This document shows positions 8,053-30,680 of a stretch of 60,351 bases of DNA, piece by piece. The DNA is taken from the IMG/VR virus record IMGVR_UViG_3300048833_000402, positions 1 through 60,351 of that record; one strand, written 5' to 3'. The translations under genes and the position numbers were made by a program. The notes under the pieces are model-generated. The model was given only the letters and a program-made list of their open reading frames with translations. It had not been told where the DNA came from and searched no databases. Each line of letters starts with the position of its first letter. The stretch's first letter is position 1. This DNA comes from a virus.

Positions 8053-8082
8053 CTTTCCTGACCCTTGGCAACCGACATCCCT

Positions 8083-8105
8083 CCCGCCCCAGAGGCGGGT
8101 TTTTC
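8083..8105 (+). terminator. Intrinsic terminator between holin-like gene and endolysin
   Basis: The arms CCCGCC and GGCGGG enclose a short loop and are followed by six T residues. The element lies 31 bases after the holin-like stop and just before the endolysin Shine-Dalgarno (TTGGAGGA). It is conserved at 58753-58774 in prophage B, although the surrounding spacer is not, which argues that it is functional, possibly as an attenuator setting endolysin level. Confidence 0.7.
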
Positions 8106-8119
8106 ATTTGGAGGATACC

Positions 8120-9036: not shown

Positions 9037-9190
9037 GACCCGCGCGCCATGTCCGCCCGTGGTCGAGTACACCAGCGCTGAGCAGGCGCGCGCGGCAGAC
9101 GAGGTTGAGGCGATGCCGGAAGACGCAGTGATTGTCCGGATGCTGAGCGACTACACTGTTCTACGCGATCGTGCGCGGGCCTGCCGTTGA
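8945..9190 (+). CDS. Rz1-like outer-membrane lipoprotein (o-spanin), nested start
   Basis: This 81-aa lipoprotein has a short basic n-region, a hydrophobic core (APLIAMLWL) and the lipobox LTGC; the mature part begins CAMAGSETRAPCPP. The start lies 92 bases inside the i-spanin frame, so the genes overlap out of phase and the o-spanin extends past the i-spanin stop. The ATG at 8945 is chosen because AAGAAAGA precedes it and it is conserved at 59617; an upstream in-frame ATG at 8927 is possible. With its partner it would fuse inner and outer membranes at lysis. Confidence 0.65.
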   Translation: MRSTARCSTLPPIAPLIAMLWLTGCAMAGSETRAPCPPVVEYTSAEQARAADEVEAMPEDAVIVRMLSDYTVLRDRARACR

Positions 9191-9382
9191 AATCCGGACC
9201 TGGCGATGCCCCACCCTGACCGAGACCGACTGCCTGATAGCAGCTGAGCCTAACGTCACCTCGTCAGCATGGACGTCATCGACTGCATCCAATTCACCCT
9301 TTGGTTGATCGCCGGTGACTCCTCGGCGGAAAGCCGGTATCGTTCGATGTGAACTAGCTCAGAGATCATTGAGGAGCGACTT

Positions 9383-11257
9383 TTGCGAGTATGTCGGATA
9401 AGTATCAATCATTTCCGTGGCATCAAAGGCGCCGTTCTGCACTTGCCCAAGCATGCGGTGCTAATCGGCGACAACAATACTGGCAAAACGACCATTCTTG
9501 AGGCGCTGGACCTCGCTCTTGGTCCTGATCGACTGAATCGTACCCCGCCGATTGATGAGCACGATTTTCATCAGGGGCGGTATTTGGCCAAGTCGGATCC
9601 AGAAGCGGCTGCAATCGAAGATGGCGATGCAGCGGGGAATGCCTTAGGCCCCGATGAACCTGCGGCAGCCGAAGAGTCGGACGCCGAGGCACCGCGTATC
9701 GAGATTGAGGTCACCATTGCCGATCTGAGCGAAGAGCAGCTGGCCCGCTTTGGTGACAACGTCGAGTTTTGGGACTCGAACGCGGACTCTTTCTATGAGG
9801 CGCCGAATCCAGAAGGTATCGACCCAGCCCATGTCGTCGAAGCGCTCCGCGTGACCTTCCACGGCTGGTACGACGTCGAGGAAGATGACTTTGAGGGGCG
9901 AACTTACTTCACGCGAAGCCTCCTGGACGGAGGCACACCAGTCCCTTTCACGAAGAAGGACAAGCAGGCCTGTGGCTTCCTTTACCTTCGATCCCTTCGC
10001 ACTGGCACACGCGCGCTCAGCCTTGAGCGCGGCAGTCTCCTCGACATTATCCTCCGGCTTAAGGAAGTCCGGCCACAAATGTGGGAAGACACGCTCGCGA
10101 CTCTGTCGGGTTTCTCCGTGGCCGCAGATCCGGCCCTTGGCATTACTGGCGTACTCGAAAGCATAAACGCCGCCCTGAAGAAGTACGTGCCGAAGGAATG
10201 GGGCATCGAGCCACACTTAAAGGTTTCAAACCTGACCCGCGATCACCTTCGCAAAGTCATCACGGCCTTCATTGCAACAGGCGAAGGCCAACATGCGGCC
10301 CCTTACTACCGGCAGGGAACGGGCACGATCAACATGCTCGTCCTCGCAATGCTGTCGCAGATTGCAGCCGACAAGCAGAACGTGATTTTCGCGATGGAAG
10401 AACCGGAAACGGCAATCCCGCCTTACGCGCAGAAGCGCATCGTACATGAAATCCGTCAGCTCGCCTCGCAGGCGCTTTTCACTTCGCATTCCCCTTACGT
10501 ACTTGAAGAGTTCGCCATCGAGGAAACTGTCGTACTGGGGCGCGGCTCCGACGGCGTGCTTGCTCGCAAGCCAATCAGCCTGCCTGACAACGTGAAGCTC
10601 AAGCGGTACCGGCAGGAGTTCCGGACAAGGTTCTGCGAAGGGCTTCTTGCCCGCCGCATATTGATCGCGGAAGGCGCAACAGAGGCGTCGGCCTTTCCTG
10701 CTGTTTGCCGACTGCTTAGCGAACTTAAGCCAGACACCTACCGCTCCCTCGAAGCTATGGGCGTTTGCGTGGTTGATGCCGGTAGCGAGACAAACATACC
10801 CGGCATGGCGAAACTCTATCGTGAGCTCGGCAAGCGCACGTTCGCCTTGTGCGACAAGCAGGAAGCTGCGCACCAAGCCCTCATTGAGCAAGAAGTCGAG
10901 TGCCTGCTGATGCACGGCGAAAAGGGATTTGAGGCGATGGTCCTCAAAGGCACGACAGAAAATGCGCTCAAGCGCTTTGCCGCGACCATCGACTGGCCGC
11001 AGGACCTTACGCAAACCTTCCCCGATCCAGTCGCTCAGGCGACCGATGCGCTAGCGGCATACTTCAAAAAGAACAAAGGGAACTGGGGCATTTCCGATTT
11101 CCTTGCACAGTGCTCCGAAGACGAAATACCGGAATGGCTTAGGCAGGCCTGCACGCGACTTAAGGACATCTGCGATCCCCCGCCCCCGCCGCCTGCAGAG
11201 GCGGCCGCACAACCCGAAGCTGGCGAACCGGGGGCGCCTGCGGATGGAGCTGACTGA
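9383..11257 (+). CDS. gajA: Gabija GajA: OLD-family ATPase/TOPRIM nuclease
   Basis: This 624-aa protein has an N-terminal ABC/SMC-like ATPase and a C-terminal TOPRIM domain, the OLD-nuclease architecture of GajA. Walker A is GDNNTGKTT (residues 29-37), the Walker B-like segment is FAMEEPE (about 335-341), and an H-loop follows (LFTSHSP). The TOPRIM glutamate is in IAEGATEA near residue 429, and the later acidic motif appears as LCDKQ. GajA cuts DNA and is held inactive by nucleotides until phage replication depletes them; this is known for Gabija generally. The start is TTG with GAGGAG seven bases upstream. It overlaps the helicase gene by 14 bases. GC content is visibly lower than in the adjoining phage genes, suggesting separate acquisition. 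Confidence 0.85.
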   Translation: MRVCRISINHFRGIKGAVLHLPKHAVLIGDNNTGKTTILEALDLALGPDRLNRTPPIDEHDFHQGRYLAKSDPEAAAIEDGDAAGNALGPDEPAAAEESDAEAPRIEIEVTIADLSEEQLARFGDNVEFWDSNADSFYEAPNPEGIDPAHVVEALRVTFHGWYDVEEDDFEGRTYFTRSLLDGGTPVPFTKKDKQACGFLYLRSLRTGTRALSLERGSLLDIILRLKEVRPQMWEDTLATLSGFSVAADPALGITGVLESINAALKKYVPKEWGIEPHLKVSNLTRDHLRKVITAFIATGEGQHAAPYYRQGTGTINMLVLAMLSQIAADKQNVIFAMEEPETAIPPYAQKRIVHEIRQLASQALFTSHSPYVLEEFAIEETVVLGRGSDGVLARKPISLPDNVKLKRYRQEFRTRFCEGLLARRILIAEGATEASAFPAVCRLLSELKPDTYRSLEAMGVCVVDAGSETNIPGMAKLYRELGKRTFALCDKQEAAHQALIEQEVECLLMHGEKGFEAMVLKGTTENALKRFAATIDWPQDLTQTFPDPVAQATDALAAYFKKNKGNWGISDFLAQCSEDEIPEWLRQACTRLKDICDPPPPPPAEAAAQPEAGEPGAPADGAD

Positions 11258-13607: not shown

Positions 13608-14702
13608 TCAAGCGACCTTGACGAAAGCCTTCCCGTCCAAATAGGCGTCGACGTGGTTCCTTAGGGTCCGGCCGACGTACTCGCCCAGCGGCACCGGTAC
13701 AGCGTTGCCAATAAGCCGCCCGATCCGAGCAAAGCTCGGTCGGTCCTCTGCTGCGAGGAATGAGTAGTCGGCCGGGAAGCCCTGGAGCATCGCCGCCTCG
13801 CGCAGCGTTATGGCCCTGTCCTGCTCAGGGTGTCCGAAGCGACCGTTCCCGTACCCAAAGCACTGGGTCGTGATCGTCGGGCCGGGCTGGTCCCACTCCA
13901 TCCTACCGTAGACGGCGGGGTAGGTGGCGCCGGTCGAGCGCCGGTGGCACTTGGCCCGGAGTTCGTCCGGCCAGTCCCGCCAGGTGCCGCCCGGCTTAGA
14001 GGCGCGGATGCGCTGGAGGTTGGTCGCACTCAGCCTGCTCGCCACGTGCAGGGGGTCCGAGGGGTCCGCCTCTCCCGCCGCGACGGGGCGGAGGGAGCCG
14101 ATGGCCTGGCGCACCGTCGTGGTCCTCCCGGCGTCGGGCGCCGGGAGCTCGATCGGACCCAGCCTCGACGCGACCAGCACCAAGCGCTTGCGGGTCTGCG
14201 GCAGGCCGACGTCGCGGACGTCCACGATCCGGTGGTCGATGCTGTACCCGTCGAGACAGCGCAGGAACTCGGCGAACACCGGCTGGTCTAGCAGCGGGGG
14301 CACGTTCTCCATCGTGACCAAGTCCGGCTGCAGGGCCTTGACCAGCTCGCCGAACCTTCGCACCAGCCTCCAGTCGTCACGGCTCCCCCGTCCCTTGCGC
14401 TTCCCTTCGCCCTGCCGGGCGGCGGAGCGCGAGTAGGTAGAGAATGGCTGGCAGGGTGCGCAGCCTGCGAGGAGCGTGACGCGCCCGCCCTGCAGGGTGT
14501 CTGCGATCGCCGATGCGTCGAGGCAGTCGACGTCGGCGAGGAGGAACGCTGCGTTGTTGTTGGCAGAGAAGGGGTGCTCGCAGCTCGGGTCGACGTCGAC
14601 CCCCAGGCGGACGTCGATGCCAGCAAGCTCAAGCCCGTGTGTCAGGCCGCCCGCCCCGCAGAAGAGGTCGACTGCTACGATGGTCTTGTCGGTGCTAATC
14701 AT
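13608..14702 (-). CDS. DNA C5-cytosine methyltransferase (defence-operon member)
   Basis: This 364-aa protein carries the C5-methyltransferase motifs in order: motif I VDLFCGAGGLTHG, motif IV with the catalytic Cys in GCAPCQPFS, motif VI MENVPP, motif VIII QTRKRLVLV and motif X IGRLIGNAVPVPLG. The AdoMet-binding and catalytic sites look intact. The ATG at 14702 overlaps the stop of the HEPN gene (ATGA), making it the third gene of a leftward operon with DUF262 and HEPN proteins. It probably marks host DNA or regulates the toxin-like partner; the target sequence cannot be read from the protein. It is not closely related to the methyltransferase at 22083-23156. Confidence 0.9.
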   Translation of the reverse strand: MISTDKTIVAVDLFCGAGGLTHGLELAGIDVRLGVDVDPSCEHPFSANNNAAFLLADVDCLDASAIADTLQGGRVTLLAGCAPCQPFSTYSRSAARQGEGKRKGRGSRDDWRLVRRFGELVKALQPDLVTMENVPPLLDQPVFAEFLRCLDGYSIDHRIVDVRDVGLPQTRKRLVLVASRLGPIELPAPDAGRTTTVRQAIGSLRPVAAGEADPSDPLHVASRLSATNLQRIRASKPGGTWRDWPDELRAKCHRRSTGATYPAVYGRMEWDQPGPTITTQCFGYGNGRFGHPEQDRAITLREAAMLQGFPADYSFLAAEDRPSFARIGRLIGNAVPVPLGEYVGRTLRNHVDAYLDGKAFVKVA

Positions 14703-15412
14703 GGGGCCTTCGGGTGGAGGAAGCCCTTCGCCACAATGTATTGATCGAAGGACGTAACTACCTCCAGCATATAGGCTACCACGGGATCGCGCAACTCCGC
14801 AAGTCGGGTCGCCGGAAGGTGTTGAGCCCCCGACAGGAAGGACTCGTTGCCATGCGCGAGGCGGTTGCGCTTGTGCCTGAGGTACTTCATCGGCGGCATC
14901 CCGTCCTCGAAGACGCTCTCGCAGGCCGCGACCCGGACCGGCTCGGCCACCGTCAGCGGGCAGGACAGGGAGGCTGCGAGCTGAACCACCTCCTCGTGCG
15001 ACCAGTTGCCCGACCGGCGCCTGATGCTCAGCTTGGTCATGGCCATGCGGTCGATCGCCTCCTGGACGAGGCCGACGAAGCGCGTCTCCGCGTCGTGGAC
15101 GGACAGATCTCGCGAGAGATTGACCCTTCCGAGGGCCCACTCGCGGATGAGGCCGTCGCACCACTCCTTGGGCGTGTGGACCTTGGCCGCGATCGCAACC
15201 TCCTCCAGCACCTTCTCCATAACCGCCTCGACCACGTTGTAGAGGTGAACGAGGAACCCACTCTTCAGGATGTTGACCGGCTCGGAGTCGACCGGCGCGG
15301 TGCGGACTCCCGTCCCCCGACCCACCGCAGACGCCTCCAGTCCCGAGATGAACCCGAGGTGGGTCTCTATCTCGACGATGCGTTCGCGGAGTATATCGCC
15401 GAATTCGCTCAA
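14699..15412 (-). CDS. HEPN-domain protein (MAE_28990/MAE_18760-like), putative RNase effector
   Basis: This 237-aa, mostly helical protein carries a canonical HEPN catalytic motif R-N-x3-H (RNRLAH, inside KYLRHKRNRLAHGNESF, about residues 179-184). Its N-terminal part (LVHLYNVVEAVMEKVLEEV) resembles the MAE_28990/MAE_18760 group of HEPN proteins. HEPN domains with this motif are usually metal-independent RNases in toxin and anti-phage systems. It overlaps the DUF262 stop and the methyltransferase start by 4 bases each, so the three products are probably made in fixed ratio. The family name is from memory of its pattern; RNase activity is inferred from the intact motif. Confidence 0.7.
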   Translation of the reverse strand: MSEFGDILRERIVEIETHLGFISGLEASAVGRGTGVRTAPVDSEPVNILKSGFLVHLYNVVEAVMEKVLEEVAIAAKVHTPKEWCDGLIREWALGRVNLSRDLSVHDAETRFVGLVQEAIDRMAMTKLSIRRRSGNWSHEEVVQLAASLSCPLTVAEPVRVAACESVFEDGMPPMKYLRHKRNRLAHGNESFLSGAQHLPATRLAELRDPVVAYMLEVVTSFDQYIVAKGFLHPKAP

Positions 15413-16503
15413 GGCGCGAGCCGCTCATACACGAAGCGAACCCTCGCCAGCAGCTTGGACTTGACGTTGGCCGCGTCGGAGGTCGTGACCTCGGCGAAGT
15501 CGGCGTCGTCGGCCCAGGCCGCAACATCGTCCCGCGTCGCCGACAACGGGCCAAAGTCCCGCAAGGCTAGCGCTGTGCCGACCGCGATCGCCTCAAAGCG
15601 CACGCGTGGAATCTGCTTACCCGTCGCGGTCTTCCTAAAGCCGTTGGGGAACAGCCGCTCGACCTCCGCCAGCATGGCGTCGAACTCGGCCCTCAAACGC
15701 GGCAGGTAGTGGGGGTCGTTCGTGGCGCGCTCATTCGCTTCACGGACAAAGTCCCAAATGTAGTCGCGCGGGCGATCCCGCCATCCCGGAAGGTCCATCG
15801 CGCCGTCCGCCAGCGTGAACTTCTCGAGATATGTGAAGAACCGGACGACGAGCTCCTCCCGCTCCCTCTCGCTGACCTGCTTCGCGCCGATCGGGGTCGC
15901 CGTCACGAAACGCTCGTCCTTTGAACATTCGACAACGAGGTCCATGAACGGACCGGGAAGTGAACCACGGCGAATCTCGGCCTCGTTCAGGTGGGTGCCG
16001 CCGGTATTGATGCGGTTGAACATCTCGGTCCGCGTTGCCTCGTCTACCAGGTTGTCGAGGACGATCCCGCGGATCGACCGTGCCGAGATCTTCCGCTGCC
16101 TGCTACGTTCGAGGTCGTCCACGTAGAAGCCGTTCAGCTCCGGGAGCTGCTGCAGCTTTTGCAGCTTGAGGTCGCCGTCGAGGAACCGGACCATCGTCCG
16201 AAGCCGCTGCGATCCGTCCACTATCTCAAGTCGGCCGTCGTCCGCCTGCCAGAGGAAGAGGAAGGGGATCGGGAGGCCCATCAGCAGGGACTCAATGAAC
16301 CGCGACTGCTTGTCGTCGGGCCAGACCAACTCCCGTTGATATGGGGGGACGTAGTATTCATCCTGTCGAACCTTGTCGGCCAGGAACTCGACCGTGTACT
16401 CAGTTACAAGGTACTTTATCGCCATCTCCAGCTTGGCGATCGCTGCCTCTCCTGCCGTTCTCTGAGCCTCAGTTGCTCTCGTGCGTTTGGTCGTCCGCGC
16501 CAT
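15409..16503 (-). CDS. DUF262 (GmrSD/ParB-like nuclease-fold) protein without a DUF1524 domain
   Basis: This 364-aa protein has a DUF262 domain in its N-terminal half: VPPYQRELVWPDDKQSRFIE and EIVDGSQRLRTMVRFLDG (DGQQR-like motif read as DGSQR). DUF262 proteins act as nucleotide-sensing or DNA-targeting modules in modification-dependent restriction such as GmrSD. The HNH-type DUF1524 half of GmrSD is missing, so the effector could instead be the HEPN protein encoded next. The start is the ATG at 16503; an in-frame TTG at 16515 is also possible. It is the first gene of the leftward operon; the sequence upstream (16504-16600) is AT-rich and likely holds the promoter. Confidence 0.75.
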   Translation of the reverse strand: MARTTKRTRATEAQRTAGEAAIAKLEMAIKYLVTEYTVEFLADKVRQDEYYVPPYQRELVWPDDKQSRFIESLLMGLPIPFLFLWQADDGRLEIVDGSQRLRTMVRFLDGDLKLQKLQQLPELNGFYVDDLERSRQRKISARSIRGIVLDNLVDEATRTEMFNRINTGGTHLNEAEIRRGSLPGPFMDLVVECSKDERFVTATPIGAKQVSEREREELVVRFFTYLEKFTLADGAMDLPGWRDRPRDYIWDFVREANERATNDPHYLPRLRAEFDAMLAEVERLFPNGFRKTATGKQIPRVRFEAIAVGTALALRDFGPLSATRDDVAAWADDADFAEVTTSDAANVKSKLLARVRFVYERLAP

Positions 16504-16744
16504 TTGCTTCGCCAATTTGGATTCAACTCAATCAATCATCGATTACTGCCCCATTATCAAACTGTTTTACATGGCACGAATGGCTGTCCGTGATTCTTGG
16601 CGCTCCGTCTGGGTTACCCCGTGGGTGGACCTGATCAAACCATCGGCGCAGATGGACGCGTTCATCCGTCTGTTTGCCACCTTCTGCGCCGGGCCGGTTC
16701 CTCCGATCCTCCTGTCTTCCAGCCCGGAATTGCCCCCCGGCCTT

Positions 16745-19595: not shown

Positions 19596-19831
19596 CCATC
19601 CTGCCCCACAGTTCCGCTTGGCCCGCCGACCGCGTGGCTGAGGCGCGTGCAGTCATCGCCGATGTCGCGCATCACAGCGATCTCCTCATCCGGCTCGCCT
19701 GCAACGTGCTGGTTCAGCATGGCGAGACCCCGGGCGAGCGTGCCGATGCCCAGCGCCTGCTGGTGGTCGTTGACGCGCGGCGGCCGGTGCGGCGCGCCCA
19801 ACGCGAGGATCAGGGGAGGGCCGCGCGATGA
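19592..19831 (+). CDS. Small phage protein of unknown function
   Basis: This 79-aa protein starts MTILPHSSAWPADRVAEAR and is rich in Arg and Ala, with a central helix (HHSDLLIRLACNVLVQHG) and a basic tail. I do not recognise a family. Support for it being real comes from its position: its ATG overlaps the preceding stop (ATGA) and its stop overlaps the start of the VRR-NUC gene, continuing an unbroken chain of coupled early genes. Other frames over the same bases lack such coupling. Confidence 0.6.
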   Translation: MTILPHSSAWPADRVAEARAVIADVAHHSDLLIRLACNVLVQHGETPGERADAQRLLVVVDARRPVRRAQREDQGRAAR

Positions 19832-20223
19832 TGCGCCGCGGCACCCCCGAGGCCGATCTGCAGCGCGCCGTCGTGCAGGCGCTGCGCATCGCCCTGCCCC
19901 GCAGCGCTATCATCCACCATTGCGCCAACGAGGTGACCGAGGCCGGACCTCGCGGAGCGAAGCGCCAGGCGATCCTTGTCGGCATGGGCGTCCATGCCGG
20001 GTTCGCTGATCTGATGGTGATTTGCGATGCCCGCGTACTGTTCCTCGAACTGAAGGCGCCGAAGGGGCGATTGCGACCGGAACAGGAGGCGTTTCGCGAC
20101 GCGGTGAAGGCACAGGGTTTCGGCTGGGCACTGGTGCGCAGCCTCGACGATGCGCTGGGCGCGCTGGCAGATCACGGCTTCACGACACGGATCGCCCCTG
20201 CCCCACGGAGGCCTGCGCCATGA
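19828..20223 (+). CDS. VRR-NUC domain nuclease
   Basis: This 131-aa protein is a stand-alone VRR-NUC nuclease of the PD-(D/E)xK fold. The signature is intact: GFADLMVICDARVLFLELKA gives the catalytic Asp and the E-x-K pair, preceded by a helix with TPEADLQRAVVQAL (catalytic Glu) and followed by GRLRPEQEAFRDAV. Phage VRR-NUC proteins are thought to process branched DNA during replication or recombination. It is coupled by 4-base overlaps to both neighbours in the early replication operon. Length and motif order are typical of phage members. Confidence 0.85.
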   Translation: MMRRGTPEADLQRAVVQALRIALPRSAIIHHCANEVTEAGPRGAKRQAILVGMGVHAGFADLMVICDARVLFLELKAPKGRLRPEQEAFRDAVKAQGFGWALVRSLDDALGALADHGFTTRIAPAPRRPAP

Positions 20224-21170
20224 GCCACCGTGCGACCGTCTGGGCCATCCAGCAACGCGGGTTGAAACCCGCAACCAAGATCGTGCTGTGGTTCCTGTGC
20301 GACCGGCACAACCCGGACTTCGGCTGCTTCCCGACTCAGGCGCGGCTGGCTGAGGACGCCGAGATGTCGATCTCGGCGCTGAACGAGCATCTCGCCGTGC
20401 TAGAACGGGCTGGCCTCATACGCCGCCTGCGCAGCCATGATCCGCGCACCCACCGCCGTCAGGCCACGCGCTACATCTTGAGGTTCGAAGAAGGCTTTGC
20501 ACAAGAGCCAACTCCGGAAACCGGAGACGGCTTCGAAGGCACGGAAGGTGAACAGGAAGATGACCCAACTCCGGAATCCGGACGCGGAGCCATCTCCGGA
20601 TTTTCGGCCGAGCCATCTCCGGATTTTGCCGAAAGCCATCTCCGGAATCCGGAGACTAACCTTGTAAGAGAACCCCTAAGAGAACCTGTAAAGGAGGAGG
20701 CGGGCGCGCAGGCACGCGCGGCGATTTCCGATGAGGTTTTCGGGGAGCTGCTCACCGCGCTGGGCCTCGACCCCGCCGCCCTGCCCGGTTGGTGGCAGGG
20801 CTGGCCGCCCCGGCTGCACGTCCAGCGCTGGCGCGACGAACTTGGGCTAACCGAGGCGGAAATCATCGCTACGGCCGAGGCCAGCCGCCAGGAGCACCCC
20901 GAACCGCCCGATGGGCCGAAGGCGCTGGACCGGGCGATGCAGCGTGCAGCAGGGCGCAAGGTCGACGATGCGGGCCGAAAGCGCCGGAAACTCAAGGCGC
21001 CCCCTGCCCCGGCTGCGAAGCCGATCACCGACCTCCCCGCCTTCTATGCCGATCTGGTCAACTCCGACCGCTACCTGCCGGTCAGCGCAATCAGCAACAC
21101 GATGCGCGACGCCATGCTGGCGCGGGGATTGGTCACGGCCGAACGCCTGCGCGAGCGAGGTGTTCGATGA
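20220..21170 (+). CDS. Phage replication initiator-like protein with winged helix, gene carries internal iterons
   Basis: This 316-aa protein has an N-terminal winged-helix DNA-binding domain (residues about 1-90: GCFPTQARLAEDAEMSISAL, then LAVLERAGLIRRLRS) like phage O-type or RepA-type initiators. An acidic, low-complexity linker (about 95-150) follows, then a C-terminal helical domain. The coding sequence of the linker contains repeated CTCCGGA elements spaced about 23 bases apart, the pattern of an origin inside an initiator gene as in lambda O. It is coupled by overlap to the VRR-NUC gene before and an unknown gene after. Initiator function is inferred from domain order, position and the iterons. 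Confidence 0.7.
   Translation: MSHRATVWAIQQRGLKPATKIVLWFLCDRHNPDFGCFPTQARLAEDAEMSISALNEHLAVLERAGLIRRLRSHDPRTHRRQATRYILRFEEGFAQEPTPETGDGFEGTEGEQEDDPTPESGRGAISGFSAEPSPDFAESHLRNPETNLVREPLREPVKEEAGAQARAAISDEVFGELLTALGLDPAALPGWWQGWPPRLHVQRWRDELGLTEAEIIATAEASRQEHPEPPDGPKALDRAMQRAAGRKVDDAGRKRRKLKAPPAPAAKPITDLPAFYADLVNSDRYLPVSAISNTMRDAMLARGLVTAERLRERGVR
20505..20654 (+). repeat. Iteron array inside the initiator gene; putative replication origin
   Basis: Five copies of the core CTCCGGA start at 20512, 20569, 20594, 20617 and 20640. The last four are spaced 25, 23 and 23 bases. Copies three to five share the longer unit AGCCATCTCCGGA(A/T)T. Because 23 and 25 are not multiples of three, each copy is read in a different frame (AISGF, PSPDF, HLRNP), so the repetition is selected at DNA level. 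A less GC-rich, AG-rich stretch (20655-20690) follows directly and could be the unwinding region. Confidence 0.7.
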
Positions 21171-21835
21171 CCTTGCAACGACTGATCGGCCGCGCAGGCA
21201 GTCGATCTGCTCGACGCGCGCTGGGTGTGCAGGCGGCCCTCGAATGGGCGTTCCGGATCGAACAGGCGCAGCTGGAACTGCCGCTGCCACCGGACATCAC
21301 CGAGGAAGGGTTCGGCTTCGGCCTGGAATACGTCCTGCTCCAGCGTGCTGTGCTGGGCTGCAAGATCGACGGCGGCCGACACAAGATCGGGGGCTATACC
21401 CACGAGGACGCCGAGGTCATCGCCGCCACCGTCGCCGGGATCCCCGACAGCCTCGGCAGCAAGCGCATGGCAATCCGCGTCGCCGAACTGGCCCGCGCCG
21501 GGCTGACCCCGGACTGGATGCCAGGTGCCGTCCCGCGCTGCGTGCCGACCATCATCAAGCAGAACCAGCATGGCGCGCATGCGGGGGCAATCGTCGTGGG
21601 CACAGAACGCATCCGGGTGCGTGGCGCGGGCGCGCGTGACACGTGGAAAACCGTCGACATCCTCGCCTGCCCGGTCACATTCTCACCCCACCCGCAGCAG
21701 ATCGAAGCCGCTCGGCGCTCCTACGACGACTGGTGGCAGGCGCTGGACTGGGTCCGGGAGGGGCTGATCGCCGGTGCGATGCTGCGAGAGCTCGAGGTGA
21801 CGACTGCGATGCCGAAAATCAGGCCGTGGGCTTGA
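21167..21835 (+). CDS. Phage early protein of unknown function
   Basis: This 222-aa protein begins MTLQRLIGRAGSRSARRALG and continues with a helical segment (ALEWAFRIEQAQLELPLP). The middle contains KIDGGRHKIGGYTHEDAEV and the C-terminus aromatic residues (YDDWWQALDWVREGL). I do not recognise a family. It is the last gene of the overlapping early operon, its ATG overlapping the initiator stop, so a role in replication or its control is plausible. The following 247 bases form the junction to the defence cargo. Confidence 0.6.
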   Translation: MTLQRLIGRAGSRSARRALGVQAALEWAFRIEQAQLELPLPPDITEEGFGFGLEYVLLQRAVLGCKIDGGRHKIGGYTHEDAEVIAATVAGIPDSLGSKRMAIRVAELARAGLTPDWMPGAVPRCVPTIIKQNQHGAHAGAIVVGTERIRVRGAGARDTWKTVDILACPVTFSPHPQQIEAARRSYDDWWQALDWVREGLIAGAMLRELEVTTAMPKIRPWA

Positions 21836-21956: not shown

Positions 21957-22082
21957 ATCATGATCGCGGACCTTGCGGCGACGCTCAACCCATCGACAGC
22001 GAAGGCTGCCTAGCATAGCATCAGCTGATGGCTTGATCCCAAGGCCCAGGATATTGTGGCGACAAGCGAGCAGGAAACATTC

Positions 22083-23156
22083 ATGGAACACTCCGAAGCA
22101 CCCTTCAAGTTCATCGATTTGTTCGCTGGAATCGGGGGCCTCCGGCGTGGCTTCGACGCAATTGGTGGACAATGCGTCTTCACCTGCGAGATGAACAAGT
22201 ATTCTCAAGAGACCTATCGCGCCAACTTTGGAAGCGACCATGAAATCGCCGGTGACATCACGCAGGTTGCCGCATCGGACATTCCTGAACATGATCTGCT
22301 TCTAGCCGGATTTCCTTGCCAGCCGTTCTCTTTGGCTGGCGTCAGCAAGAAGAACTCGCTCGGTCGAGCTCATGGGTTCGCGGACGAGACACAGGGGACC
22401 CTGTTCTTCGACGTCGTCCGGATCTTGCGCCATCACCAGCCCCGGGCCTTCTTGCTCGAGAACGTCAAGAACCTGTTGAGCCACGACAAAGGCAACACCA
22501 TGCGGGTCATCCTGCATGCATTGGACGAACTCGGGTACGAGGTCGACTACCGGGTGATCGATGCGCGTTCTTGGGTACCGCAGCATCGTGAACGAATTTT
22601 CATTTCCGGGTTCCGCAGGGACTACAAGACGACCTTCTCCTTCGATGACGTGTTAGTCCCGCCAGGGCCCAACCCCACGCTATCATCGATCCTCCACCCC
22701 GAGGACGGGTCGGAGGCTGCAGACGGGCGTTACACGACCGGCAGCTTCGGCAAGGTCAACGAACGTTACACGCTGACTGATGGCCTCTGGTCGTACCTGC
22801 AGCGGTATGCCGAGAAGCATCGCAGTGCAGGCAACGGGTTCGGATTCGGGCTGGTCGGCCCAGAGAACGTGGCTCGCACTCTCAGCGCACGGTATCACAA
22901 GGATGGGTCTGAAATCTTGGTCAAGCAGTCTGGAAAGAACCCACGCCGTCTGACGCCGCGGGAATGCGCGCGTCTCATGGGCTTCGACCGTCCCGGCTCC
23001 AACGACCCTTGGAAGATCCCGGTAAGTGACACCCAAGCATATCGGCAGTTCGGCAACGCCGTTGCGGCACCCGTTTCGGTTGCGATCGCCGAAGCAATGG
23101 CTCCATGGTTGACCAACACGGTTGCCCTCCGGTCGCGAAGGGAACGCGTTGGCTGA
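22083..23156 (+). CDS. DNA C5-cytosine methyltransferase, Dcm/EcoRII-like, first gene of MORC-type R-M operon
   Basis: This 357-aa methyltransferase has motif I FIDLFAGIGGLRRGF, motif IV with catalytic Cys in GFPCQPFSLAGV, motif VI LLENVKNLL, motif VIII QHRERIFISGF and motif X YRQFGNAVAAPV. The target-recognition region lies between about residues 190 and 290. The ATG at 22083 follows AGGAAA; an upstream in-frame GTG at 22056 is less likely. It overlaps the vsr gene by 8 bases. The pairing with Vsr and with an EcoRII-N protein downstream points to a Dcm-like target such as CCWGG, but this is inference. It heads a six-gene rightward operon. Confidence 0.9.
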   Translation: MEHSEAPFKFIDLFAGIGGLRRGFDAIGGQCVFTCEMNKYSQETYRANFGSDHEIAGDITQVAASDIPEHDLLLAGFPCQPFSLAGVSKKNSLGRAHGFADETQGTLFFDVVRILRHHQPRAFLLENVKNLLSHDKGNTMRVILHALDELGYEVDYRVIDARSWVPQHRERIFISGFRRDYKTTFSFDDVLVPPGPNPTLSSILHPEDGSEAADGRYTTGSFGKVNERYTLTDGLWSYLQRYAEKHRSAGNGFGFGLVGPENVARTLSARYHKDGSEILVKQSGKNPRRLTPRECARLMGFDRPGSNDPWKIPVSDTQAYRQFGNAVAAPVSVAIAEAMAPWLTNTVALRSRRERVG

Positions 23157-23658
23157 CAACAAGGCGCCCCTGACAAGATCACAGATGATGGCGCGTGTCC
23201 GTTCGGCGGATACCAAGCCGGAACTGGTCCTGCGCAAGGCCCTTCACGCCATCGGCTTCCGGTTCAGGTTGCACGTCCGTTCCCTCCCGGGTTGTCCGGA
23301 CATCGTCATGCGGAAGCACAGGTGCGCTATCTTCGTCAACGGCTGCTTTTGGCACGGTCACGCTGACTGCAAGCATTTTCGTATTCCCAAGACCCGGCCA
23401 GAATTCTGGGCCGCAAAGATCGGAGCCAACCGGGAGCGGGACGCACGCGCAATCGAGGCTCTGCTGAGCGGCGGCTGGCGCGTTCTCGTTGTTTGGGAAT
23501 GTGCGACGCGGTCGTTCCAGGTGGACAATTTGATCGGCATCATCGCCGTATGGTTGCAGGGCACTGAAACAAGTGCAGAATTGTCATCGGATGGCCTGTC
23601 GAGCGACAGCCGAGTCAGGCCCGGAATTTCATCCGGCGAGCAGGAAACAGGTAGATGA
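23149..23658 (+). CDS. vsr: Very short patch repair (Vsr) endonuclease
   Basis: This 169-aa protein is a Vsr endonuclease: MMARVRSADTKPELVLRKAL, LPGCPDIVM (catalytic Asp), IFVNGCFWHGH (catalytic histidines and zinc-site residues) and GWRVLVVWECA match the family well. Vsr nicks beside T:G mismatches that arise by deamination of 5-methylcytosine, protecting sites methylated by a linked C5-methyltransferase; in MORC-type operons it may alternatively act as the restriction nuclease. The start is TTG at 23149 after AAGGGAA, overlapping the methyltransferase gene. A C-terminal extension of about 40 residues beyond the Vsr core is poorly conserved in composition. Confidence 0.9.
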   Translation: MADNKAPLTRSQMMARVRSADTKPELVLRKALHAIGFRFRLHVRSLPGCPDIVMRKHRCAIFVNGCFWHGHADCKHFRIPKTRPEFWAAKIGANRERDARAIEALLSGGWRVLVVWECATRSFQVDNLIGIIAVWLQGTETSAELSSDGLSSDSRVRPGISSGEQETGR

Positions 23659-25283
23659 ACGACCTTATCAACGACCCGAACGCCTCGCGGCTGATTTATG
23701 GCCTGCGCGACACCGGCTACAACGTAAAGACCGCGGCTGCGGACATCATCGACAACTCGATCGCGGCGGGCGCAGAGAACATCAACATCGAGATCCAGCT
23801 CCTGCATGACGGACGGAAGGTCGTCTATTTCGGCGACGACGGTCACGGGATGAACCATGAGGAAGTTCGGAACGCCATGCGGTACGGCGCGGACAGGCGC
23901 CCCGACGCAAAGAGCCTTGGAAAATTCGGCCTGGGCCTCAAGACCGCCTCCAGCTCGGTTTGCAAGCGCTACAGCGTGATCTCTCGGCGGTCTGAGGACC
24001 AACCCTTGGCGAAGCTTACATGGGACCTGGAGCACGTCGAACAGCGCAACGTCTGGGAAATGCTGGCCGAGCCGGTGACGGCGGATCAGAACGAGATGTT
24101 CGACGAGTATTGCGGTCCGACCGGCACGCTTGTCATTTGGGAAAATTGCGACCGGTTGCTGTCAAAGGAATACACGCCGGGCACCAAGGAACAGGCAGCT
24201 GTCAAGCGGATGTCCGAGGCCCTGAGCAAGCACCTCTCCCTCGTCTTCCACCGATTCCTTGATGTAAATGACAGCCGGGAACGGAACGTGGTGATCCGGA
24301 TCAACGGAACTCCGGTGAAGCCATGGAACCCGTTCTATCCCGAACGTTCCGAACAAGTGCTTGCTCCGAACAAACAGAAAGTGGTCGTCGAACTCTTCGA
24401 TGGGAGCGAAGAAGTCGCTGAAATGAAGGCGTGGATCCTTCCGCACCGCCGCGACATGACCAAGGAGGAGGAGGCCGAGTTCGCGCGGATTTCGAACAGG
24501 GCGCAAGGCTTCTATGTCTATCGCGAGGGCCGCCTGATCCAGGATGGTGGCTGGATGGATGTGTTCGGTGCACCTGAACCGCACACCTCGCTTCTCAGAA
24601 TCGAGTTCGACTTCGGCCACCAGTTGGACGAGGCTTTCCGGATAGATGTGAAGAAGTCACGGATCCTGTTCCATCCGGATCTTGAGGACGGCCTGCGCAA
24701 ACTGCTTCAACCGGTCTATCGCGAAGCTGGTGCTCGCTATCGCCGCGAAAGCCGAGACGATGCCAACCAAAAGAAGACCGTCGACCACAGCAGCGCGAAC
24801 AAGAATATTGCGGGCACGCCAAATACCACGAAACCCCAAGTAACTGCTGCGGACGTACGCACCCAAACAGCCGAAATCAGCAACAACCGCGGCCCGAAGA
24901 TCAGGATCAAGGCGCCAGTCCAGAATTTCGTCAGCCCTGACAGCATTCACGTCGAAGCGGTGACCACAATCACAAATGGCCATCTGTGGGAACCCGCCTA
25001 CCGCAGCGCGGGCAGCGCCGACCATGTGCCCGGCGTTCAGCTCAACAAGCACCATGACTTCTATCAGAAGATATACCAGCGCGCCGCCGCCAACGGCTAC
25101 GCGGTCGAGGGGATGGACCTTCTGCTCTACGCTTTCGCCATGGCCGAGCAGAACAACACCGATCCCGAACTCGAACCCGTCTTCGAGGATATCCGCGAAG
25201 AAATTTCGGCCAACCTTCGCAAGTTGCTGCGGCACATGCCGGATCCCGAACCCGCAGAACTGACCGAGGACGACGAGGAGTGA
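23655..25283 (+). CDS. MORC/MutL-like GHKL ATPase of a restriction-modification operon
   Basis: This 542-aa protein has an N-terminal GHKL (Hsp90/MutL/MORC) ATPase domain. The N-box is AAADIIDNSI (residues 27-36, with Asn34), the G1 box DDGHGM (61-66) and the G2 box GKFGLGLKTA (89-98). A transducer-like S5 domain follows (about 230-350), then a linker and a C-terminal helical region from about 430. Prokaryotic MORC-like ATPases are known from R-M operons together with C5 methylases, Vsr, SNF2 helicases and EcoRII-N domains, where they probably clamp or remodel DNA. It overlaps vsr by 4 bases; the HNH gene begins 2 bases after its stop. Confidence 0.85.
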   Translation: MNDLINDPNASRLIYGLRDTGYNVKTAAADIIDNSIAAGAENINIEIQLLHDGRKVVYFGDDGHGMNHEEVRNAMRYGADRRPDAKSLGKFGLGLKTASSSVCKRYSVISRRSEDQPLAKLTWDLEHVEQRNVWEMLAEPVTADQNEMFDEYCGPTGTLVIWENCDRLLSKEYTPGTKEQAAVKRMSEALSKHLSLVFHRFLDVNDSRERNVVIRINGTPVKPWNPFYPERSEQVLAPNKQKVVVELFDGSEEVAEMKAWILPHRRDMTKEEEAEFARISNRAQGFYVYREGRLIQDGGWMDVFGAPEPHTSLLRIEFDFGHQLDEAFRIDVKKSRILFHPDLEDGLRKLLQPVYREAGARYRRESRDDANQKKTVDHSSANKNIAGTPNTTKPQVTAADVRTQTAEISNNRGPKIRIKAPVQNFVSPDSIHVEAVTTITNGHLWEPAYRSAGSADHVPGVQLNKHHDFYQKIYQRAAANGYAVEGMDLLLYAFAMAEQNNTDPELEPVFEDIREEISANLRKLLRHMPDPEPAELTEDDEE

Positions 25284-25284
25284 G

Positions 25285-26118
25285 ATGATCTCCGATCGGA
25301 AAGACATCATCCGAATGGAGCTGGAGGCGGGAACCGGGGCCGCGATCGGCATGGCGGTCGACCAAAGCGGGACCAGGACTGGTCTGCGCCTCTGGTTCGC
25401 CGATCTGGACGAGCGCCACGGCCCCGTGGCGGAGCTGCGTCCCTACGGGATCCGGGGATATCGCGTGGCGCTTGGCTTCGGGAAGTTTGCGGGTGAAGTT
25501 GTCCGCCAGATACAGGCCGCAGGCGCAGAAGACGTCGGGTTGGCACGCGCCTTGGTGGCGTCGATCAGCCCAGCGGTGGATCTCCAAGTATCTGGCCACG
25601 GCAGGGATGATTGGTATGTGGATTCCGGAGCTTTCAAGATCACAGCAACAGCCCGAGGATTGCCAGACGATCAGGACGAAGCCGTTGCCAAAATCTGCCG
25701 AGATGTAGTCGTGCCGTTGCTGGCCGCCATGGCGGAACTTATCGGTTATGATGTCATCGAGGAGGAGGACGATGACCGTGCGCACGCCTATGAGGGCGCA
25801 ATCCTAATCTCGACAATCCGGCGACGCGAACGAAACCCGCGAAACCGCCTGCTCTGCATCCGGCTGCATGGCGAGAAATGCGCGTGCTGCGGCATAGAGC
25901 CGAGGTCAGTCTATGGTGAAGCAGGAAGCATCATCGAAGTTCATCATCTCGAGGCCCTGTCCCTTCTGGCCGTGCCCCGCGCATACGATCCGGCGATCGA
26001 TCTGGCACCGCTCTGTCCTAACTGCCACCGCGCCGTGCATACGAGACGCCCGATACCCTTCTCCCTTTCGGAATTGCAGGCGCTCATGTCACCGCACGTA
26101 GACCAGGCGGCCATCTGA
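25285..26118 (+). CDS. HNH endonuclease (likely restriction nuclease)
   Basis: This 277-aa protein has a C-terminal HNH domain with two zinc-type cysteine pairs: CACCGIEPRS, then IIEVHHLEAL (catalytic HH) and LAPLCPNCHRAVHTRRP. The first about 170 residues form a domain I do not recognise with certainty (acidic linker EEEDDDR near 160), resembling MrcB-like N-terminal modules that read DNA modification. The ATG is 2 bases after the ATPase stop and the stop overlaps the helicase start (TGATG). It is the best candidate in the operon for the DNA-cutting subunit. Confidence 0.8.
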   Translation: MISDRKDIIRMELEAGTGAAIGMAVDQSGTRTGLRLWFADLDERHGPVAELRPYGIRGYRVALGFGKFAGEVVRQIQAAGAEDVGLARALVASISPAVDLQVSGHGRDDWYVDSGAFKITATARGLPDDQDEAVAKICRDVVVPLLAAMAELIGYDVIEEEDDDRAHAYEGAILISTIRRRERNPRNRLLCIRLHGEKCACCGIEPRSVYGEAGSIIEVHHLEALSLLAVPRAYDPAIDLAPLCPNCHRAVHTRRPIPFSLSELQALMSPHVDQAAI

Positions 26119-27938
26119 TGAACAACCTTGCCGCCCTGCCTCCAGATTTTGACACTCTGCTCGCAAAGGTTCCTGAAGGATTTTCAGTCTCAGAGCGGGT
26201 TATCGAACCGGTAGCGATCCTCTCCCGAGTATCCGGGAAGATGTCCGTGGCGCTGGGCGGCAAGCGAACGGTTCGGGGAGAAGTTCGGCTGATCGAGGCG
26301 CCATCCATTTCCCATGCTTGGATAGCGGACGGCGCAATCTTGCGTCCCTTGCCCAAGGACGCTCCAGGCTTGGTCGCAAAATGCCTTGGTGACGAAGCCC
26401 CGAACGACATTTCATATGCTACGGCTATCAGACTGCTGCGATCGCCGCCCGAGGGCCTCGAAATCGAGGCTGCACCCGATATCTTGCACTCGGGCAAGAT
26501 AGCCGCTGAGGAATTGCCGCCCGAGATCGACATCCCTGGCCTACAGGCCGACCTCTTCCCCTACCAGGCACGAGGCGTCCGATGGATGTGGGAAACGGTC
26601 AATAAGACTGCCGGTTTGATCCTTGCGGACGAGATGGGCCTCGGCAAAACGCTTCAGATCATCGCACTCCTGCTGATGGATCCACCCGAGAACGCCGCAC
26701 CGGCCCTTATCGTTTGTCCGACCAGCCTCATCGCGAATTGGGTGCGCGAGTTCGGCAAGTTCGCCCCCAGCCTCTCGCTGATGGTTCACAGGGGAGCCCA
26801 TCGTGCCGGAATCTATCGTGACCTGCAGGTCGCATCTGTGGTGATCACCACCTACGAGACGATGGTGAACGACATCTCGATCTTCTCGTCCTTTGAATGG
26901 GCATGGGTGATCTGTGACGAGGCTCAGGCCATCAAGAACCCCCACTCCAACCGTCGGCAGGCAATTGTGACGATCCCTCGCCGCAAGTCGATACCGATGA
27001 CCGGCACCCCGGTCGAGAATACCCTGATGGATCTGTGGTCGTTAGCCGATTTCGCAATCCCGGGCATGCTTGGGGACAGAACCGTCTTCGAAGTCGAGTT
27101 CCCTGACACGCTGGAGGCCGGACAGGCGCTGGGCCGCTTGACCGATCCAATCATCCTGAAAAGGCGAGTGCGTGATGTCGCCGCCGACCTTCCGGATCGC
27201 ATCGACATCGATCTGCCGTTGGAACTCGATGATGGTCTGGCCCGGCATTACGACGACGTCCGCGAAGCTACGCTGGAAAAGTACCCGGTCGCGGGCGCGC
27301 TCGTCGCTACCCTGCAGCTTCAGCTGGTCTGTGCGCATCCTTGGCTCAGGATTCCCGACGCTGCGACGGTCGACTGGGACGAAGCCAAGATCGTTACCCG
27401 TGAGGACATTCCGCTGCTTACGCCGAAGCTCGACCGAACTGTCGAACTTCTACGGGAGGCATTTGCGACCGGCCGGAAAGTCATCGTCTTTGCCCTGTTC
27501 AACCGGATCGGCGACCTGATCCGGACTGCCTGCAGGGATTTCGCCAAAACCTATTGGGGGGCGATCAACGGCTCGACCCCGCAGGAGGACCGCCAGACCA
27601 TCATCGACGAATTCTCCGCCCACGATGGGGCCGCGTGCCTAATCTTGAATCCGAAGGCGGCGGGGGCGGGGCTGAACATCACCGCGGCGACCGTCGTTAT
27701 CCATTTCACACCGGTCTGGAACCCCGCCCTCGAAGCTCAGGCGAGCGCCAGGGCGCATCGGCGTGGCCAAACCGATCCGGTCACTGTCTATCGCCTTTTC
27801 TACAAGGACACGGTGGAGGAGGTGATGATCGAACGCTCCGCCTGGAAGAGCGACCTTGCCAACGAAACCGTCCCGGTTTCCAGCCGGGACGCGGACGACC
27901 TGAGGCGCGCCCTCACCATCAGCCCGGTAAAGCCATGA
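26118..27938 (+). CDS. SNF2-family (SWI2/SNF2) DNA translocase/helicase
   Basis: This 606-aa protein has all the main SF2/SNF2 motifs: I LADEMGLGKTLQII, Ia VCPTSLIANWVREF, II CDEAQAIKN (DEAQ box), III MTGTPVENTL, and in the second RecA domain LNPKAAGAGLNI and QASARAHRRGQTDPVTVYRL. About 150 residues precede the helicase core. It probably translocates on DNA and couples target recognition to cleavage, together with the MORC ATPase and HNH protein. It is linked by overlaps to the HNH gene before and the EcoRII-N gene after. Confidence 0.9.
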   Translation: MNNLAALPPDFDTLLAKVPEGFSVSERVIEPVAILSRVSGKMSVALGGKRTVRGEVRLIEAPSISHAWIADGAILRPLPKDAPGLVAKCLGDEAPNDISYATAIRLLRSPPEGLEIEAAPDILHSGKIAAEELPPEIDIPGLQADLFPYQARGVRWMWETVNKTAGLILADEMGLGKTLQIIALLLMDPPENAAPALIVCPTSLIANWVREFGKFAPSLSLMVHRGAHRAGIYRDLQVASVVITTYETMVNDISIFSSFEWAWVICDEAQAIKNPHSNRRQAIVTIPRRKSIPMTGTPVENTLMDLWSLADFAIPGMLGDRTVFEVEFPDTLEAGQALGRLTDPIILKRRVRDVAADLPDRIDIDLPLELDDGLARHYDDVREATLEKYPVAGALVATLQLQLVCAHPWLRIPDAATVDWDEAKIVTREDIPLLTPKLDRTVELLREAFATGRKVIVFALFNRIGDLIRTACRDFAKTYWGAINGSTPQEDRQTIIDEFSAHDGAACLILNPKAAGAGLNITAATVVIHFTPVWNPALEAQASARAHRRGQTDPVTVYRLFYKDTVEEVMIERSAWKSDLANETVPVSSRDADDLRRALTISPVKP

Positions 27939-28375
27939 CGACCAAAACCTTCATCAAGACTCTCAGCGCCAATGACGTCGGAACGACAGGCGGCCACATG
28001 GGGGGCATTCTCGTTCCGAAGGGCGATGGCGAACTTCTCGCCTTCTTGCCCAAGCTTGATCCGGCAACCTTGAACCCTTCGGCGTGGATCGACTGCGAAA
28101 CGCCAAGCGGTCAAGTTCTGCGCCTTCGCTTCGTGTACTACAACAACCGAATGCATGTGCCAAATGGCACACGAAACGAATATCGGATCACCTATCTGAC
28201 AAAGTTCCTCAGGGAGGAAATGGCCAACGCGGGCGATACATTCGAGATTTCGAAGGCGGACGGGGCGGCGCGTTACAAAATCAGGGTGATCCCGATTGGC
28301 GGCAGTTCCGACGCCTCAGACGATGACGCCCCTGTCAGGATCAGACTGACGACCGGTTGGCGGCGGGTCCACTGA
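27935..28375 (+). CDS. Stand-alone EcoRII N-terminal (effector DNA-binding) domain protein
   Basis: This 146-aa protein matches the pattern of the EcoRII N-terminal domain, a B3-like DNA-binding pseudobarrel: FIKTLSANDVGTTGGHMGGI, LRFVYYNNRMHV and NGTRNEYRITYLTKFLREEM are characteristic. In EcoRII this domain binds CCWGG as an effector site and has no nuclease activity. Here it is free-standing, so the catalytic domain of EcoRII is replaced by other operon members. It overlaps the helicase stop by 4 bases. The last segment (GGSSDASDDDAPVRI) is acidic. Recognition of CCWGG is inferred from the family. Confidence 0.75.
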   Translation: MTTKTFIKTLSANDVGTTGGHMGGILVPKGDGELLAFLPKLDPATLNPSAWIDCETPSGQVLRLRFVYYNNRMHVPNGTRNEYRITYLTKFLREEMANAGDTFEISKADGAARYKIRVIPIGGSSDASDDDAPVRIRLTTGWRRVH

Positions 28376-28508
28376 ATGAAGCGTCCATCGCGGTCATCGT
28401 CGAGAGAAGGTTCCAAGGGCGACCGGGGACGATTGTCAACGCGTCGTCCTTTGTGCACACCGAAGGGCGACGGCGTGTATCACACTACGGTGTCGCTGCA
28501 GCCCCATT

Positions 28509-30680
28509 TCAATGGGACCGCACTTTGCCGGAGATCCTGATTCTGGGCGTCTCCTCATCGTCGACGTAGCCCTCTTCGCGCGCACGGCCGAGGATTTCGA
28601 CTGCGAGTATGCATTGCCGCTCGGACGGCAAGCGGCGCTCCTGCTGGCTGCAGGCCTTCAGAATACCGTCATCCTTCATCGAGAATGAGCGGCTGGAAGC
28701 GGTCCATTCGCGCAGCCTTCCCCAGAAGGCGCTGCCGAGCAAAATCACCTTTGACTGTGCCTCGATCCCGGAAATCATCGCCTCTTCGCGGCGACCATCA
28801 CGTTCGGCCGCTTTGGCTTCCTGAGGCTCTATAAGGAAGTCCTCAAGTCCGCCATCGTAGTCAACCTCGGTTCGTGCGACAGAAGACCAGCATCCCTGTT
28901 TCTTCGCCCACTCTGAAATGTTGCGGATGCCGCTGTCCGTTGCGGTGATCACGTCGGCCGCGGCCTCGCAGGCGATGAGGAAGCATTGCATCAACGCTTC
29001 CGGAACGGACTGCTCATTCCAGACCCGATCAAGATCCAGAACCTTCCCGCCCTCTTCGACGTCATGGACCAGCTTGGCAATACCGTAGGTTACGATGTTG
29101 GCCCGATAACCGCCCGGGTACCACTCTTGTCGAGGGACAGCCTTCTCGAGGGCACGGAAAATGATCACCTTCGCGATGAGGCGTTTGAACCAGGTCTCGT
29201 CATACTTTCTGTCACTGGCCGCCCACGCTTCTCCAATCTCCGATGCGAAGGCTGCGAAATTCTTCTGCGCCCCTTTGCTCACAGTGTCCGGTTTCATCCG
29301 GAACGAAAGCTCGACCTTGGCAAGATCCGTCTTGGCGAATAGCTGCGCCTTCGGATGTTCGGAGTCGAAACGCTTCCGATCGGCCCCTCCCAGCTTCGCC
29401 TGCTCCACTTGGTACTGTCCCCGCGCCCTTTCATAGAACCATTTGGTCTGCCGGTTCATGCCCGGCGCTGGAGGCGCGGAAACACGGCGCGAGTATCCTT
29501 CCATCCGCATGTGGAATGGGTGGTTCGAGAAGAAATCGGCGGCACTGACCTTGTTTTGGCTGTTCGCATACTTCGAGATGTTCGGCACGACTTGCTCGGA
29601 ACTTTCGGAAGGCACCACCGTCAGTTTGATCTGGACATGGACTCGGTCCAGGTTCTCGGGGCTGTGCTTCAATGCGGCATGCAGCGAAGCGGTCGTCTGG
29701 CCACCGTTGACGATCTGTAGGTTTTTCGCCGAAAGGATGCGGACACCTGCCCCGTCCATCTCGATGTCGACAGCGTCTGCGGTCGCGGACAGCCCATTGT
29801 TGTAGCTGAAGAACATCTCGGGTTCGCCCTTGATGGTGTCCCGGATCCCTTCGTTGACCGATTTGCGGCGCGCCTGAATGAAACTGCGGATGTTCGACTC
29901 CAGCAGTCTCGCGCCCCACTTGTCATAAATGTCAGCCAGCTGTTTGCCACGGATGACAGCCAGATAGGATGGCAGTTGCGACTCCGGACCGGAAGCTCGA
30001 AGGGCTGGAAGGCCTCCGCCGAAGTCTTCGGCAAACTTGACGACGATCTTTTCCTTGGAGCCGGTGGTTTCAACCCTGTGCAGACGGGTCAAATCCCAGA
30101 TGTTGTAGGTCACGGGGATATCGGAAATGCTGCCAGCAACGACGGCATCTGTCCGGGCGCTGTAGATCGCGTTCGTGACAAGGATCAGTTTGATCTTGGT
30201 CACGGATGGCCATGACTCTGCGATCATCGTGGCAACGCCGAATTCAGGTGACTCGATGTGCAATTGGTCCCGAAACTCCCGCCGCCGTGCGGCTGCGACG
30301 AAATTGATCAAGTGGCCAAAGTGCTTTTTGGCGTCGGCTGCGTTCAAAGTCGGCGGCTGTTCGTCGTCGAAGACTTCGCAGACTATGACGCTGAGGATGC
30401 CATCTGTTTCTCTAGGGTCACCCCCATGGCCATCGATCCGAAGGGACTTTCCGGAAGCAGACCCTCGAAAAGCACATCTGTCGGACGTCTCGATCTCGCC
30501 TTCGGCTTCCAGAGTTTCGCATAGCCGTTCGAATGCGACGTCCTCGAGCGGCAGATCAGTTTCCGCACACTCTTCCCTCAGTTCGGCAACTAGGTCTTGG
30601 TTGAATTCGACAAGCTGGTTCAAACTGGGCTCCGAAGCGCAAGGCACAGTAAAGGCGGAGGTTCTTCCGCCACACACCAC
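28509..30680 (-). CDS. AIPR (abortive infection phage resistance) family protein
   Basis: This protein of about 723 residues shows AIPR-family hallmarks in its middle: GARLLESNIRSFI, MFFSYNNGLSATAD, KNLQIVNGGQTTASLHAAL and NISKYANSQNKVSAADF. AIPR proteins include lactococcal abortive-infection proteins and occur in MORC-type R-M loci. It is transcribed towards the EcoRII-N gene, leaving a 133-base convergent gap. The GTG start at 30680 gives the longest frame; no internal ATG is near, and a GTG at 30647 is an alternative. The protein could be a nuclease or regulatory partner; activity is not evident from the residues. Confidence 0.8.
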   Translation of the reverse strand: MVCGGRTSAFTVPCASEPSLNQLVEFNQDLVAELREECAETDLPLEDVAFERLCETLEAEGEIETSDRCAFRGSASGKSLRIDGHGGDPRETDGILSVIVCEVFDDEQPPTLNAADAKKHFGHLINFVAAARRREFRDQLHIESPEFGVATMIAESWPSVTKIKLILVTNAIYSARTDAVVAGSISDIPVTYNIWDLTRLHRVETTGSKEKIVVKFAEDFGGGLPALRASGPESQLPSYLAVIRGKQLADIYDKWGARLLESNIRSFIQARRKSVNEGIRDTIKGEPEMFFSYNNGLSATADAVDIEMDGAGVRILSAKNLQIVNGGQTTASLHAALKHSPENLDRVHVQIKLTVVPSESSEQVVPNISKYANSQNKVSAADFFSNHPFHMRMEGYSRRVSAPPAPGMNRQTKWFYERARGQYQVEQAKLGGADRKRFDSEHPKAQLFAKTDLAKVELSFRMKPDTVSKGAQKNFAAFASEIGEAWAASDRKYDETWFKRLIAKVIIFRALEKAVPRQEWYPGGYRANIVTYGIAKLVHDVEEGGKVLDLDRVWNEQSVPEALMQCFLIACEAAADVITATDSGIRNISEWAKKQGCWSSVARTEVDYDGGLEDFLIEPQEAKAAERDGRREEAMISGIEAQSKVILLGSAFWGRLREWTASSRSFSMKDDGILKACSQQERRLPSERQCILAVEILGRAREEGYVDDEETPRIRISGKVRSH

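Follow-up and report, generated by a model that had tools for sequence, protein, structure and literature searches.

The segment at positions 20508-20699 of the window, i.e., of the whole 60,351-nucleotide stretch of viral DNA analyzed here, very likely serves as a prophage replication origin that lies inside the gene of its own initiator (Table 1). The preliminary description had placed five CTCCGGA cores in the linker codons of this gene, with the last four spaced 25, 23, and 23 bases, and these positions were confirmed: on the plus strand, the cores start at 20512, 20569, 20594, 20617, and 20640, with start-to-start distances of 57, 25, 23, and 23, and the repeats begin about 290 bases into the gene, from codon 97. 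The 7-bp core is present five times as described, but the true repeat unit is longer, with inverted repeats of about 15-19 bp at sites 1, 2, and 5 and half-sites with a T/A tail at sites 3 and 4. A sixth CTCCGGA copy on the minus strand (20648-20654) turns the last repeat into a perfect dyad, CTCCGGAATCCGGAG. An excess of CTCCGGA over the whole window was sought and not found (10 observed versus 15.6 expected), the copies being clustered, and the full half-site has no further exact copy elsewhere in the window. That each repeat is read in a different frame was overstated: all three frames are used (1, 1, 2, 1, and 0 for the five cores), but three of the five cores share one.

The initiator protein matches the Pfam family HTH_36 (PF13730) at 5e-13, with 49 bits against a curated cut-off of 25. 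Its residues 1-183, comprising the N-terminal domain and the linker, match PHROG 345, "replication initiation O-like" (1.5e-24), and PHROG 391 and 678 were matched as well. Pfam otherwise returned other winged-helix models for this protein and no match to Phage_rep_O (PF04492). The AlphaFold model displays a winged helix, a disordered region at residues 97-165, which holds the repeat codons, and a helical C-terminal domain. A Foldseek search with the complete model found nothing significant, a DnaD N-domain coming closest (E 0.027). VIA-align put residues 1-95 among winged helices in general and did not favor any one family; two of the matched chains bear the titles "Structure of initiator" and "N-terminal domain of DNA binding protein".

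Table 1. Features of the initiator gene, its repeats, and the adjoining genes (positions in the window).
Feature	Positions	Strand	Remarks
VRR-NUC-like nuclease gene	19828..20223	+	directly upstream, 4-base overlap with initiator start; PHROG 824/93/5702
Initiator gene, 316-aa O-like replication initiation protein	20220..21170	+	HTH_36 winged helix, disordered linker, helical C-terminal domain
N-terminal winged-helix domain	20220..20495	+	codons 1-92; Pfam, AlphaFold model, VIA-align
Recognition helix, residues 51-63	20370..20408	+	DSSP of model; mutual information
Codon 51, Ile	20370-20372	+	predictor of repeat base 5
Codon 56, Glu	20385-20387	+	predictor of repeat bases 8-9
Iteron 1, CCAACTCCGGAAACCGGAGAC	20508..20528	+	dyad, near-perfect palindrome
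Iteron 2, CCAACTCCGGAATCCGGACG	20565..20584	+	imperfect dyad
Iteron 3, CCATCTCCGGATTTTCG	20590..20606	+	half-site
Iteron 4, CCATCTCCGGATTTTGC	20613..20629	+	half-site
Iteron 5, CCATCTCCGGAATCCGGAGAC	20636..20656	+	perfect dyad core adjoining AACC tract, near-perfect palindrome
Low-GC, purine-rich tract	20657..20699	+	AACC at 20658, 20671, 20683 (spacing 13, 12); synonymous sites conserved
C-terminal helical domain, about residues 168-316	20721..21167	+	exchangeable between N-terminal types
Downstream gene	21167..21835	+	overlaps initiator stop by ATGA; PHROG 9306

Homologous genes were collected in two scans, which yielded 160 loci, and further scans added many more; the array statistics given here come from 170 distinct genes whose repeat consensus was usable. 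The array is kept across these 170 genes, with five sites in 105 of them. A spacing of 93-37-23-23 was found in 55 genes and that of the window, 57-25-23-23, in 37, while the final two spacings are 23/23 bp in 138/170 and three reading frames are used in 145/170. Across most of the repeat array and the tract behind it, the same-codon fraction amounts to 0.81-0.97, dipping to 0.70 in a single six-codon window of the tract; the values from the region separating sites 1 and 2 are 0.56 and 0.76, and those from the remaining gene are 0.36-0.78. The homologues thus vary in their linker protein but retain the repeats in spacing, frames, and synonymous sites. When the linker protein of the window was kept and its synonymous codons were redrawn from the usage of the family, no 7-mer occurred five times and no 10-mer three times in any of 20,000 trials. 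As had been proposed from the sequence of the window, the repetition is preserved for DNA reasons, and the repeats are under selection as DNA. In the per-site consensus, both main types reveal dyads at sites 1, 2, and 5 and half-sites with T/A tails at sites 3 and 4, where the first arm is nearly invariant and the second arm is missing.

The repeat sequence itself varies among relatives, in step with the recognition helix. Ranked by mutual information, residue 51 predicts repeat base 5 better than any other N-terminal column: Arg51 goes with G in 105/106 genes and Ile, Val, Leu, or Pro51 with C in 64/64, which makes 169/170 in total, and the sole exception, L218, is a mis-called consensus. Residue 56 best predicts bases 8-9, with Asp or Glu accompanied by CG in 130/130 genes, Arg by TC in 7/8, and Thr, Val, or Asn often by CA. 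Half-site base 3 follows residues that are not in the helix, and its variation may therefore reflect ancestry. In 17 test genes fetched after the rule had been written down, the base-5 rule holds in 17/17, all of them with Arg51, the non-Arg side being retested only by plasmid pRA03; among the later-fetched genes, Arg56 occurs with TCTCA in 10/10. Across the homologues, the sequence of the repeats is demonstrably matched to the predicted recognition helix in the winged-helix domain that the same gene encodes.

In a tree built from the C-terminal domain alone (143 genes), helix type and repeat type each need 24 changes, of which at least 8 are supported, and all 8 change pairs on supported branches agree. 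The C-terminal domains of the window and of L010 share 95% identity, and L010 carries the other type of helix and repeats. Since helix and repeats switch together on this tree, the N-terminal domain and the repeats travel as one cassette. An N-terminal tree built without the helix displays only five switches for residue 51, one of them on a supported branch; with so few independent origins behind the residue-level code, cassette co-inheritance is better supported than a single-residue code. The covariation and the joint changes on the tree point to the N-terminal domain as the binder of the repeats, and the initiator gene of the window very probably carries sites bound by its own N-terminal domain.

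The less GC-rich stretch noticed behind the repeats was confirmed, with 46% GC at 20645-20694 versus about 66% for the whole gene; the tract is only moderately A+T-rich, which counts against an origin. In most families, AACC recurs there at 10-13 bp on the coding strand, directly past the last repeat. At least three AACC copies are present in 194/230 distinct genes, with none for the control words GGTT, CCAA, and CAAC. Among 24 family representatives, AACC ranks first of the 256 four-letter words (at least three copies in 13, at least two in 19), and the runner-up is the overlapping word GAAC, with 5 and 14 of 24, respectively. The C-terminal portion of the gene shows no comparable AACC run in any representative (0/24). 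The tract is present whatever the repeat sequence of the family, and the peptide encoded over it differs, being IT-EP-NQ-GT in L250, LT-RT-GT in L353, and NP-EP-KP in L008. Because frame and encoded peptide differ between families, the AACC tract is kept as DNA. Synonymous shuffles alone did not yield a significant AACC run in families encoding EPxxEP; the argument is based on the between-family frame differences and the unbiased 4-mer comparison. AACC tandem units were also seen in L254, L425, and others; in Vibrio 1.061.O, Microbacterium Gingerbug, and a few further families, the runs are weak or missing. The tract is probably the unwinding element and is also a candidate for single-strand recognition.

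If the segment acts as an origin, the N-terminal domain, probably as a dimer, would bind the dyads and half-sites, which lie 23-25 bp or roughly two helical turns apart, and the bound initiator would build an O-some-like complex. This complex would destabilize the adjoining low-GC AACC tract, of which one strand would be captured. The C-terminal domain, presumed to contact helicase or loader, would recruit the replicative helicase, either directly or via a loader. The disordered linker would mainly hold DNA sites, and initiator domain and cognate sites would be inherited and exchanged as a cassette.

Binding by the same domain would yield all the covariation observed if the repeats were operators for transcription of the replication operon, controlled by this protein or a relative, and no origin; winged-helix folds of this kind are indeed common in MarR/SlyA-type regulators. 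We consider this unlikely, as the sites are located well inside the gene and not at a promoter, the full half-site is not found a second time in the window, and the neighboring tract is conserved, too. Moreover, PHROG neighbors and genome context are replication genes, and a plasmid, pPR9, replicates autonomously with an HTH_36 hybrid initiator (PMC5703833). The near-perfect palindromes at sites 1 and 5 could also be read as single-stranded hairpins of RNA or DNA, e.g., as a structure in the transcript or a site for single-strand initiation, and hairpins have been discussed for the lambda iterons (PMC7466680). This reading has only a slight chance, as sites 3 and 4 lack the second arm in both main types and keep a nearly invariant first one, and as the repeat sequence follows the recognition helix, for which a hairpin would have no need. 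That the repeats are a chance result or the by-product of a repetitive protein linker, as the three same-frame copies encoding PTPE, PTPE, and PSPD might suggest, is hardly credible, since the other two copies translate as ISG and HLRN, synonymous-site conservation is highest at the repeats, and both the recoding test and the three-frame usage of the homologues refute it.

An origin inside the initiator gene is an arrangement already known from lambda O, the pSK41 RepA_N protein, and the HTH_36 hybrid of pPR9. The four lambda iterons in gene O, at 39034, 39054, 39078, and 39101, are 19-bp imperfect inverted repeats followed by an A+T-rich tract (PMC5043065, PMC7466680). The likeness to lambda O drawn in the preliminary description was borne out, in that both genes carry iterons past the N-terminal DNA-binding domain (from codon 117 in lambda and codon 97 in the window), followed by a low-GC tract with a purine-rich top strand. 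Both also have inverted-repeat units near 19 bp, a comparable spacing (20/24/23 in lambda versus 57/25/23/23), the use of several frames, and an ATGA overlap with the next gene, which in lambda joins O and P. In contrast, the iteron sequences are unrelated, the window mixes full and half sites, its AACC-repeat tract is missing from lambda, and it has no recognizable P gene. The Rhodobacterales prophage had been called unrelated, which needs qualifying for the initiator proteins: they belong to different Pfam families, HTH_36 versus Phage_rep_O (lambda O matches PF04492 at 5.7e-36), but lambda O also matches PHROG 345 (5e-17), 391, and 678. As these O-like profiles are common to both, lambda O and the protein of the window are probably distant kin. 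The link rests on the common PHROG profiles; the first 110 residues of lambda O, compared as a single sequence with the HTH_36 alignment, revealed nothing (probability 0.5%).

The Rep protein of pPR9 carries an HTH_36 N-terminal domain (pfam13730) on a pSK41-type C-terminal domain; the swapped block of about 500 bp includes both the N-terminal domain and the origin, and the rep region allows autonomous replication (PMC5703833). By its published description, pPR9 Rep shares the HTH_36 domain and the same cassette logic with the window, but it belongs to a staphylococcal plasmid and its C-terminal domain is unrelated. In pSK41, the winged-helix N-terminal domain of the RepA_N protein binds four Rep boxes located centrally in its own gene, in dispensable codons (PMC5703833); this is a family of Firmicutes plasmids, in contrast to the HTH_36 phage initiators of the window type. 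The unwinding elements of oriC and RK2 oriV consist of tandem ~13-mers beside the initiator sites, bound as single strands, with the RK2 consensus TAAACnTTnTTTT (PMC4081077), whereas the repeat of the window is AACC-centered, has a period of 10-13, lies inside a coding region, and is only a putative single-strand binding site. What is new, i.e., not found described in the open papers searched, is the breadth among phage families, the helix-repeat rule, and the AACC tract. Searches of the open papers for Rhodobacter phages with in-gene iterons yielded nothing on the initiator family of the window.

In the genes of more distantly related HTH_36 initiators, this position is occupied by other repeats, particular to each and usually spaced by 22-23 bp: AACCGGA in Rhizobium PPF1 and its kin, GGGGTCAGAATGTGACCCC in cyanophage Pam5, and CCGTGTCTCA in Labrenzia phage V1. 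In-gene repeats were also found in Pseudomonas MD8, LESphi3, and PP9W2, in a Klebsiella prophage, and in Microcystis, Sphingopyxis, Vibrio, and Microbacterium phages; in Salmonella phage SI8, iterons were sought and none were seen. On the 104-kb record of Roseicitreum antarcticum plasmid pRA03, positions 58251-59210 (L433) encode an initiator of the type found in the window, likewise with CTCCGGA repeats and an AACC tract, and this locus could be an integrated prophage or the plasmid replicon.

Several relatives are adjoined by genes for a DnaB helicase, a P-like loader, or a helicase loader, which supports a role in replication. A helicase loader was sought in the element studied here and none was identified, which counts against an origin. 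The gene downstream of the initiator gave no Pfam or NCBIfam match and is not a clear loader candidate, with a homologue downstream in 81/170 relatives at variable positions. The VRR-NUC match of the upstream gene, 1.5e-4, is under the Pfam cut-off.

Further downstream, at 22056-30680, the window encodes a cytosine methylase, a Vsr nickase, an MzaB-like ATPase, a protein at 25285-26118, a SNF2 helicase (ZorD/DpdE-like), and an MzaE-like protein, and this defense-like gene set makes an Mza-like system likely. A GajA-like ATPase (PADLOC, 3e-267) is encoded at 9383-11257. On the minus strand at 13608-16515, a cytosine-methylase-like reading frame, an NsnA-like protein, and a 237-aa protein form a possible second defense or restriction cluster. 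Similar tail-gene modules are located at both ends of the window (1-9600 and 50700-60350), with similar protein pairs at 1325/51972, 1714/52438, and 8924/59560, so that the record probably comprises portions of two related prophages.

It is possible, though we would not quite call it probable, that the HTH_36 O-like initiators of phages from several bacterial phyla constitute one large in-gene-origin class with interchangeable iterons read by a simple helix code, an array of 22-23-bp spacing, and a conserved AACC tract with a period of 10-13 bp that acts as a sequence-specific single-strand element. If so, the AACC tract would be common to phages whose iterons are unrelated and play a part like that of DnaA-trios or 13-mers; as a candidate common unwinding motif, it has no named counterpart for such phage origins in the open papers searched. 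The helix-repeat rule predicts specific swaps: I51R should change a CTCTCC-type into a GTGTCC-type preference, and E56R in an R51 background should shift it towards GTGTCTCA. In-gene origins are legible from sequence alone, and the origin, the specificity of the initiator, and the probable compatibility group may be predictable for many phages of unstudied replication.
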